This document shows positions 597 to 63,397 of a stretch of DNA of 64,000 nucleotides, in pieces (position 1 is the stretch's first letter; each line of letters starts with the position of its first letter). The translations under genes were made by a program, and so were the position numbers. The stretch is from contig CAJHZI010000651.1 of the NCBI GenBank assembly GCA_905160935.1, positions 62,001-126,000 of the forward strand. Reading direction: 5' to 3'. A model generated the notes under the pieces. The model was not told where the DNA came from. It searched no databases and worked only from the letters and a program-made list of their open reading frames with translations. Origin of the DNA: Enchytraeus crypticus (taxonomy: Eukaryota; Annelida; Clitellata; Enchytraeida; Enchytraeidae).

Positions 597-3500
597 GCGA
601 CAAAGCGACCAACAAGAAGCAGATCTGCATAAAGATGGTTGAGAGGAGTTTGACTAACGAGGCTATCAGTGACGTGATCATACTGAGCAGAAACAAGAGG
701 GCTCCTTCAGGCTACACAATGGCCGGGTAATGATTGTTTTGTGTTGAGTTGTGTGTGAGCGGTGTGTGAGGGGTGTGTGAGCGGTGTGTGAGGGGTGAGT
801 GGTGCGTGAGCGGTGCTTGAGTGGTGTGAGCGGTATGTGAGGTGTGTGTGAGCGGTGTGTGATCGGTGTATGAGCGGTGTGTGGTGTGAGCGGTGTGTGA
901 GCGGTGTATGAGGGGTGTGTGAGCGGTGTGTATGAGCGGTGTGTGAGCAGTGTATGAGCGGTGTGTGGTGTGAGCGGTGTGTGAGCTGTGTGTATGAGCG
1001 GTGTGTATGAGCGGTGTATGAGTGGTGTGTGGTGTGAGCTGTGTATGAGCGGTGTGTAGTGTGAGCGGTGTGTATGAGTGGTGTGTGGTGTGAGCGGTGT
1101 ATGAGCGGTGTGTGGTGTGAGCGGTGTGTGAGCGGTGTATGAGCGGTGTGTATGAGTGGTGTATGAGCGGTGTGTGAGCAGTGTATGAGCGGTATGTGGT
1201 GTGAGCGGTGTGTGAGCTGTGTGTATGAGCGGTGTATGAGCGGTGTGTAGTGTGAGCGGTGTGTATGAGAGGTGTGTAGTGTGAGCGGTGTGTGAGCGGT
1301 GTATGAGCGGTGTGTGGTGTGAGCGGTGTATGAGCGGTGTGTATGAGTGGTGTATGAGCGGTGTGTGGTGTGAGTGGTGTGTGAGCGGTGTGTGAGTGGT
1401 GTAGAGGTGGAGTGACTGACTTTTAAAATTGTATGGTATTTCTGTACTGTTATGTTTTATATTTCGCCGTGTTTTTTTTTTTTATATTTCACCGTGTTTT
1501 GTTCGGGTGTGGTTGCACCACTGCAGAACAGGGCAACCGCAAGATAATCTACTACATGTACGTAAGAGGCGAGTAAGGCAGGAGCTAAGGATGGCAAGAG
1601 AGGACCCACCTCACCGTGAAATATTTTCCCCCAGGACTAAATGCTAATTAATCCATCTAACTGAGGAAGGCTATGGGAAACCATCTCAGAAGCCATACTT
1701 TTCTCAAGCTATAGGCTATATAAAGTATGGATAAGGCATAGACTTTGTGAAGGGATTAACTTGTTGATCTAAGGAGTGAGAAAGCCGACTGAGTATGAAT
1801 ATGTACCATGAACCTGACACTTGGAAGTGCACTGAAGAGAAATGTTTTATATTATTACTCTACAGTGAGATCAATGGATTGGTGATTTGTTTTCGACTGC
1901 TAGCTGTTTCACATCTAGAGGTTCAGGAGCCCACACTTTCTGCCAACCAATCACAACAGCTGTAAGATCTCTGCTGTCTATTGGCCAGTGACTATGATTT
2001 TAAATTTGCTATGTCAAGCACTTCTTAAGAAACTGAATAAGTCTGACTGTATTGAAAGTGTTTCCGTCATCAATGGCAACATTGAGCACCAATAATAGTT
2101 TGATTTAGCTCAATCAAATTGTTAAGTTTATAATATTAATGTATGGAAATAATCTTGTAATCGTATCCAATGCTTACATGCCAGTTGGGCTCACTAATGC
2201 ATTACTCTTATATCAATCTTTTGTTCTTACGTTCATTATGTTATATAAGTATTAGGGATGTGTGTATTGGTAGTGGGCTAAGCCAGTGGCTCGTTGGCAA
2301 GTAGTTCGATCGGTGTTCACTGTTCAGTAGGTGCAGGGTTCAAATCCAGTGCTCTCCCATCACCGGCTGGAGGCAGCGGCGAAGTCGGTAAGATACTCGA
2401 CCGCGGATGCAATCAGTGAATGCGAGGCTCAAATTCTGTGCTCACCCGTCACTGACATCGCTTTCGAGTTAGGAAACTGGCATTAACCTTAGCTTTACCA
2501 CTAGCATGCTGTCAAGCAGAGAACGACGTTAAATCTAGCTTTGGCTTTTATCACTAGCAGAGTATATTGCATATTTGTAGGAACACTACCCCTCAGCACA
2601 AGCCCAATGGCAGCGCTGGTGGTTCGTACTTTGAGAATCACGTGGCTGCTGCAGGCATGGCTGCTGCCTACTCGAGGCAAGACAGCACAGGCAATGGTGA
2701 GTGGAGTCTACAATCTACGAACTGTGAGAGAAGTGCAGCATACGTAGTGTTTGATAGAGCATACCTCAGTGTATCTATTGAAAGTGTATTGTTTTTATTT
2801 AGCGATAGTGTAATTAGATTACACTATCGCTATATATTAATGAGTTGATTTAGTGTATGATGTTGATGAGTATCTCTATATATTAAGGAGTTGATTTAGT
2901 GTATGATGTTGATGAGTATCTCTATATATTAATGAGTATGATTTAGTGAAACCAGGAGGAAAGTTGAGAATATCTGATATAATTTAATTTTTATTTTTAT
3001 TTATTTATATGTTTAATTCAGGCATGATAGCCCTTACAATACACACACACACACACACACACATACACACACACACACACACACACACATACACACACAC
3101 ACACACACACACACACACACACACAACTAACAGTAGGCGGCAAATTTGATCTGAAAAGAGTAATGTTTTATCTGTGTTAGTTGACTCTTGAGCTGTCTTG
3201 CTGTTGACTGTGTGTGCAGCTCTGAGTGGTGTGCCCTTTCAATTAAACCCTCGACTGGTTGATCCCGGCAATATGAGCGTGGTAAGCCACTAGTAATTAG
3301 TATAGACCAAGATGTAATTAAGTGGCTCTCTAGTTGATTTATTAAAGTAAAGAGCATGGTAAGCTGATGAGCGTGGTAAGCTAATGAGTGTGGTAAGCCA
3401 TGATTAAATATAGACTAAGATGTAATTTAATGCCTCTCTACTTGATTAATTAATTCAGCGTATGAGCGCGGTAAGCCACTAATGATTAAATATAGACCAT

Positions 3501-63397: not shown

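Follow-up and report, generated by a model that had tools for sequence, protein, structure and literature searches.

Exon-intron boundaries of four animal genes, MVB12, SLC24, MGAT5 and UPF1, are duplicated in tandem in the 64,000-nucleotide stretch of DNA analyzed here (the window). At 3' splice sites (acceptors) such duplications occur about four times more often than expected, while at 5' splice sites (donors) they stay at the background rate. We favor, with a probability of roughly 0.8, the view that these are ordinary tandem duplications that are tolerated by way of the outermost copy of each array. The phenomenon is not new and was described first in amphioxus, under the name of mirages. 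What the present data seem to add is another phylum, several genes across contigs, a null model restricted to outermost copies, and an excess found at acceptors only.

The boundaries were defined by models built exon by exon. MVB12 was modelled on the plus strand from 597 to 5706, its start lying upstream of the model, SLC24/NCKX on the minus strand from 26365 to 11977, MGAT5, with 16 exons, on the minus strand from 49254 to 35923, and UPF1 on the plus strand from 55667 to past the window end. All modelled introns in the four genes have GT or GC at the 5' end and AG at the 3' end. The joined exons of MGAT5 and SLC24 are open from ATG to stop (771 and 646 amino acids, respectively), and those of UPF1 in the window (367 amino acids) and of MVB12 (176 amino acids, start outside the model) are likewise open. 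The proteins obtained in this way are conserved, since UPF1 residues 98-367 aligned without gaps to the human structure 2wjv (E=2.8e-158) and MGAT5 residues 154-771 aligned to human 5zib (E=1.3e-204). MVB12 matches the Pfam family DUF2464 (Multivesicular body subunit 12, E=3.1e-29). Many relatives of the SLC24 protein carry the name sodium/potassium/calcium exchanger, and its matches in the PDB were only partial and weaker (NCLX and NCX, best E=9.4e-20). When a spliced aligner was given the MGAT5 protein of another species, 13 of the 16 MGAT5 exons were recovered unchanged, the last without its stop codon; the deviations were that exon 3 was split, exon 7 cut early and exon 8 misplaced.

A tree built from 35 MGAT5 proteins placed the window gene in a group of 8 rows with the annelid Lamellibrachia and six others (SH-aLRT 99). 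Molluscs, vertebrates and the annelid Owenia, whose placement is not settled, fall outside this group. The named rows of this tree include no amphioxus protein, but the one nearest to the window gene is an annelid, and amphioxus as the source of the DNA thus finds no support in it. The genome assembly used comprises 524 Mb in 802 contigs, and a search of it for SLC24 paralogs returned two weak matches outside C556.

The four models contain 78 edges, 39 acceptors and 39 donors. Under a fixed rule, an edge counts as repeated if a 22-mer probe taking 14 bases from the intron and 8 from the exon recurs on the same strand, no farther than 2.5 kb away and with up to 3 mismatches; this applies to 16 edges (12 acceptors and 4 donors). 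Self-BLAST with its own masking detected 31 local duplications inside genes, 16 of which include an edge, an acceptor in 11 cases and a donor in 5. The union of both approaches amounts to 19 edges, and hand reading, which adds the MGAT5 exon 2 donor, brings the total to 20 (14 acceptors and 6 donors), two of which are weak cases (this donor and the MVB12 exon 7 acceptor). TRF returned 142 rows that merged into 91 arrays; 60 of these have a unit of at least 10 bp, 44 of the 60 lie in genes and 12 overlap an edge. The original prediction of boundary arrays in these four genes is thus confirmed by independent gene models and by TRF, which also reproduced the unit lengths of 24, 41, 45, 59, 65, 74, 81 and 61 bp and the copy number of up to 28 (28.1 at maximum). 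A unit spanning the exon/intron boundary, one of the features by which mirages are recognized, is present here.

Two edges are affected in MVB12, both on the plus strand. The exon 4 donor (3272..3530, edge 3281/3282) reads ATGAGCGTG, followed across the edge by GTAAGC, and was detected by TRF and self-BLAST; it has 3 further, diverged copies downstream, all 3 of which have kept the GT. The exon 7 acceptor (4873..5644, edge 5640/5641) ends a 41-bp array with 18 upstream copies, found by TRF, the fixed rule and self-BLAST. This case is weak because the repeat includes only 4 exonic bases and exon 7 is itself a predicted exon, in which the reading frame stops 7 bases in.

Six edges are affected in SLC24, on the minus strand. 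The exon 5 acceptor (18180..18372, edge 18180) has 2 upstream copies linked by TTGA repeats (fixed rule). Exon 6 is duplicated at both ends: its acceptor (17371..17935, edge 17384) lies in an array with a 65-bp unit holding 14 coding bases (TRF, self-BLAST), and its donor (16816..17170, edge 17139) has one diverged copy 295 bp downstream (self-BLAST), which comprises 31 coding bases and little past the GT. At the exon 8 acceptor (15697..15805, edge 15723) TRF found a 56-bp unit with 27 coding bases, the other copy of which is without AG at the corresponding place. The exon 10 donor (12961..13404, edge 13349) is present in about 6 copies of a 74-bp unit with 52 coding bases (TRF, self-BLAST), and the exon 11 acceptor (12119..12338, edge 12188) has a copy 129 bp upstream that includes 70 coding bases and was detected by self-BLAST and not by TRF.

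MGAT5, also on the minus strand, has seven such edges. Its exon 2 donor (47801..47910, edge 47890) lies in an array with a unit of about 30 bp interrupted by indels; it was recognized from a TRF array and hand reading, and no ungapped copy was found in the copy count. At the exon 3 acceptor (47039..47803, edge 47079), 41 coding bases are repeated with (TTGTA)n spacers in between, and by hand reading the AG is lost in one copy. The exon 5 donor (45163..45396, edge 45385; 59-bp unit; TRF, self-BLAST) is a GC donor, GAG/GCAAGT, kept in 2 of 3 further array copies. The exon 7 acceptor (44383..44593, edge 44450) is present in 2 copies of a 107-bp unit with 68 coding bases and the exon 9 acceptor (41374..41705, edge 41416) in an array with an 81-bp unit, both found by TRF and self-BLAST. 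The exon 12 acceptor (39637..39959, edge 39671) has a diverged copy 215 bp upstream, seen by self-BLAST and not by TRF, and the exon 16 acceptor (36171..36487, edge 36182) is repeated in 7 copies of a 45-bp unit whose frame is open (TRF).

In UPF1 five edges on the plus strand are repeated. The exon 2 acceptor (56519..56931, edge 56918) has a 33-bp unit (TRF, self-BLAST), and the exon 2 donor (57034..57390, edge 57055) a 24-bp unit in about 14 copies that run in frame without a stop (TRF). The largest array is at the exon 3 acceptor (58008..59708, edge 59668), where TRF found 28 copies of a 61-bp unit with 40 coding bases and higher-order periods of 119 and 180 bp. Among the eight pseudo-copies nearest to this exon, every third has TTTGG instead of TTTAG. 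The exon 4 acceptor (59932..60283, edge 60262) has a 41-bp unit together with older diverged copies (TRF, self-BLAST), and the exon 6 acceptor (61445..61936, edge 61929) 12 copies of a 41-bp unit with 7 coding bases (TRF).

The window also holds repeats of other kinds. An in-frame 15-bp repeat encoding SSCAA units (16051-16170) lies wholly in SLC24 exon 7; among arrays with units of at least 10 bp, TRF placed no other entirely within a modelled coding exon, and the unit length is a multiple of three. Arrays of 47 bp follow just past the SLC24 stop codon (11741-11971) and about 210 bp past the MGAT5 stop codon (35318-35714), both presumably in the 3' UTR. Two arrays, at 4133-4358 (10-bp unit) and 37212-37802 (14-bp unit), start no more than about 20 bases after a donor and contain no coding bases. 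On the minus strand, a LINE-type reverse transcriptase frame broken by a stop was recognized by eye at 52970-54316, and a 301-bp duplication with 99% identity (52278-52880) adjoins it. A SINE-like core of 39 bases occurs at 7 places in the window with at most 3 mismatches (for example at 13537-13575 and 16580-16618), and a 40-base form of it had no exact match in bacterial/archaeal or viral collections.

The frequent straddling of exon edges had been taken to speak against random minisatellites. This argument did not survive, since with the fixed probe about one third of the intron positions that lie 60 or more bases away from any edge have a local copy (33.5%, or 23.8% after a complexity filter), as do 6.5% of exon-interior positions, and since rotating the edges at random within genes gave a mean of 24.2 expected matches where 16 were observed. 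Donors even showed a deficit under rotation (4 observed, 12.1 expected). The plain shuffle that had been proposed as a check therefore yields no excess for the window edges, and taken at face value it would refute the boundary claim, rotated edges matching repeats more often than the real ones. These figures favor a chance overlap, in which introns filled with minisatellites must cross some edges and no boundary-centred process is at work. However, we hold rotation to be the wrong null, because a boundary in use has to lie in the outermost copy of an array: the working acceptor is the last copy and the working donor the first, because the exon beyond must remain intact. Rotation counts all inner copies as well, so that a 28-copy array offers 28 chances to the shuffle and one to biology, and it was rejected as a decisive test.

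In the outermost-copy test used instead, only outermost copies were counted and inner copies were dropped from the denominator. Outermost-copy rates calculated over all intron positions, which had given somewhat larger folds than this stricter denominator, are superseded. Among the 38 introns of the window that lie between two modelled exons, acceptors were outermost copies in 11 of 37 cases compared to 5.8% of background positions (p=5.4e-6), and donors in 4 of 38 compared to 8.1% (p=0.37). The complexity filter had removed the SLC24 exon 8 acceptor, itself duplicated, and one donor among the genes outside the window.

These further genes, from the same genome, provided 76 introns and comprised UPF1 exons 8-19, two ATP synthase beta paralogs (L037 on C361 and L038 on C765) and 15 VCP-like loci. 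The UPF1 model was extended through exon 19 into the part of the contig that follows the window. The VCP-like loci were found with a human VCP probe at 32-70% identity, with no clear VCP among them; their label reflects the probe match only, the 15 places being taken as a gene sample, and their edges derive from alignments of 37-52% identity. From 125 modelled junctions, 80 passed a flank score of at least 10, and 56 also had exons of at least 30 nt. The latter rule was introduced once a first listing had been made; among all 80 junctions there were 10 acceptors and 1 donor with repeats, and among the 56 left by the rule 8 and 1. In these new genes, 11 of 76 acceptors were outermost copies compared to 568 of 15164 background positions (3.75%, p=1.2e-4), and 4 of 75 donors compared to 3.98% (p=0.35). 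UPF1 exons 8-19 showed the opposite trend, with more donors (3/11) than acceptors (2/12). The acceptor rate was higher in the window (30%) than in the other genes (14.5%), as expected because a striking window had been picked.

With both sets pooled, 22 of 113 acceptors compare to 968 of 22037 intron positions (4.4%), which gives the roughly 4-fold excess (p=4.1e-9), and donors show none (8/113 versus 5.3%, p=0.25). At each of the mismatch thresholds 2, 3, 4 and 5, acceptors were significant and donors were not. The difference between acceptor and donor rates is moderate (Fisher p=0.0099 pooled, 0.047 in the window and 0.10 in the new genes). A test at the level of whole units, using the self-BLAST duplications, gave 11 acceptor arrays where 3.7 were expected (p=5e-4) and 5 donor arrays where 3.7 were expected. 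Chance overlap accords with the donor counts; for acceptors it is already disfavoured by the excess in both gene sets and at the unit level, and as a general explanation we consider it unlikely. Of the recurrence centred on splice boundaries that had been postulated, an excess is accordingly confirmed for acceptors, in the window and beyond it, and not for donors. The claim that both edge types are affected is literally correct, with donors reaching the background rate only.

The distribution of outermost copies around the 114 acceptors is also at odds with chance overlap, as it peaks around the splice site. Upstream, the rate was 2-5% from -400 to -100 and 9-13% from -80 to -50; it reached 14-19% from -40 to the edge, and inside the exon it fell to 11.5% at +20, 6% at +30, 2.6% at +40 and below 1% at +60. 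The repeated piece therefore corresponds approximately to the whole 3' splice site plus the start of the exon, a module centred on the 3' splice site and extending roughly from -50 to +25. Donors showed at most a slight increase, with a rate of 6-10% between 0 and +40 compared to mostly 2-5% farther than +100. One could imagine that duplication is aimed at 3' splice sites, by a repeated copying of this module of about 75 nt that would be tied to transcription or splicing and act genome-wide in this lineage on acceptors and not on donors, possibly through breakage or copying from RNA in the region of the branch point and AG. We regard such targeting as doubtful.

Another candidate source of the excess is the tracts at intron 3' ends. 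Sense (TTGA)n tracts occur within 80 bases upstream of 43 of 114 acceptors (14/38 in the window and 29/76 in the new genes) and within 80 bases after 2 of 114 donors (1/38 and 1/76), and in 5.5-6.3% of the intron interior. Antisense tracts were found at 0/38 and 2/76 acceptors and at 2/38 and 4/76 donors of the window and the new genes, respectively. TTGAT matches the branch-point consensus, and judging from its placement and strand (TTGA)n may function as branch-point or 3'-tract sequence in this lineage. Slippage seeded by unstable (TTGA)n, (TTG)n and (TTGTA)n at intron 3' ends would then drag the acceptor into the copies. The frequency of the tracts at acceptors and their presence in many units are in line with this idea, as is the hand-read set, in which a tract accompanied 10 of the 14 duplicated acceptors of the window and 8 of the 25 others (p=0.024). 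Under the fixed rule, however, this association was not significant in the window (8/19 versus 4/19, p=0.30), and it was absent in the new genes (5/35 versus 6/41). Intron positions just downstream of a TTGA-, TTG-, TTGTA- or GT-type tract were outermost copies in only 3.6% of cases, and tract-free acceptors were enriched as well (10/60 versus 3.2%; with tract, 13/54). We thus rejected tract-seeded slippage as the source of the acceptor excess and consider it improbable.

Comparison of related loci indicates how long arrays last. The two ATP synthase beta paralogs have diverged at 41 of 257 fourfold sites. Boundary repeats are present in the C765 copy, where acceptor 2 passes the fixed rule and acceptor 3 was recognized by eye (5 mismatches), and at neither place in the C361 copy; arrays are therefore gained or lost within this span of divergence. 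Several VCP-like loci on other contigs also show boundary repeats, and two of them, on C429 and C582, have one duplicated acceptor in common and upstream stretches that align, and are therefore not independent. This pair suggests that some arrays may persist. Tandem repeats are prone to assembly error, and collapsed or falsely repeated reads could in principle produce such patterns; with copies that differ by substitutions, a UPF1 array organized in higher-order periods and recurrence of the pattern on other contigs, an artefact is nevertheless very improbable.

In the window, AG or GT/GC is kept in 95 of 113 pseudo-copies and lost in 18, including 9 of 27 at UPF1 exon 3; many but not all copies thus keep the site, as is characteristic of mirages. 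Pseudo-copies are slightly more similar to the working site at the splice dinucleotides (92.0% identity) than at other bases (86.4%). One alternative copy was tested at 17 of the 20 boundaries, and 15 of the 17 would shift the frame or introduce a stop. The exceptions are the UPF1 exon 2 donor and the MGAT5 exon 16 acceptor, where the alternative copy is in frame and open; at the latter, a "stop" flagged by the script is the gene's own stop codon, and the frame was counted as open. Dinucleotide conservation, the high proportion of retained sites and the two open arrays would suit selection for redundant splice sites, which had also been proposed as a possibility, whether as a buffer against damage or for regulated alternative splicing. 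However, homogenisation keeps sites as well, and the lost sites together with the predominance of frame-breaking copies argue against a selected function, which appears rather unlikely.

We therefore return to tolerated tandem duplication as the preferred reading. Local tandem duplication and expansion would be very active in these introns, through slippage, unequal exchange or template switching. A duplication spanning a boundary would be tolerated because the outermost copy, the last acceptor or the first donor, still joins a complete splice signal to an intact exon, and the inner copies become intronic pseudo-sites that drift, as the 18 lost sites show. Splicing would be expected to choose the outermost copy, because an inner one would mostly break the reading frame, and plausibly because it is the only copy joined to the full exon and the far splice site. 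Classic work by Reed and Maniatis on duplicated splice sites is relevant to this choice. Duplications at acceptors take in the usual branch-point region, the AG and the exon start, and the acceptor bias could reflect either preferential duplication there or preferential retention.

PMC3087553 and PMC3902484 describe amphioxus mirages in Adh3, the globins BflGb6 and BflGb9, TnC and PGBD5, as tandem repeats over 5' and 3' exon/intron boundaries with units of 10-72 and 150-160 bp and many copies with AG/GT; regular splicing was suggested by RT-PCR, somatic instability was reported, and the PGBD5 paper (PMC3902484) mentions further cases. The arrays described here are similar in their boundary-spanning units, in affecting both edge types and in the many copies with AG/GT. 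They differ in belonging to another phylum (annelid-like by the MGAT5 tree) and in the acceptor-specific excess measured over several genes, and, unlike the amphioxus cases with their splicing and instability data, they are known from genomic sequence. No boundary mirage outside amphioxus was recognized in the open-access literature searched, which is weak evidence.

Two related systems also involve repeated splice sites. In the dual-specific splice sites of human UBC and VCX3A, as described in PMC10809524, splice sites likewise lie inside tandem-repeat units; there, both intron ends fall in one array and the intron spans a whole number of units, whereas here each of the 16 edge-bearing self-BLAST duplications contains one edge. 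Introns can also be created when exon pieces carrying AGGT are duplicated in tandem in the genome, as discussed in PMC3087553; this likewise yields extra splice sites by duplication, whereas here existing boundaries are multiplied. In the ATP synthase beta gene on C765, a 648-bp intron interrupts an exon that is continuous in the C361 copy, which represents an intron gain or loss. When this one intron was compared to 80 bases of each flanking exon, no duplicated exon sequence was found (shuffle p 0.45 and 0.35), and an origin by tandem duplication was rejected for it.

Mirages in the papers considered here concern a handful of amphioxus genes; in the present sample of genes, which were not picked for repeats, 11 of 76 acceptors carry them. 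An annelid-like host and an excess confined to acceptors suggest that this is no mere cephalochordate curiosity and give the phenomenon a measurable signature. Boundary arrays also provide naturally occurring multi-copy systems in which to ask which of several almost identical 3' splice sites the spliceosome selects.
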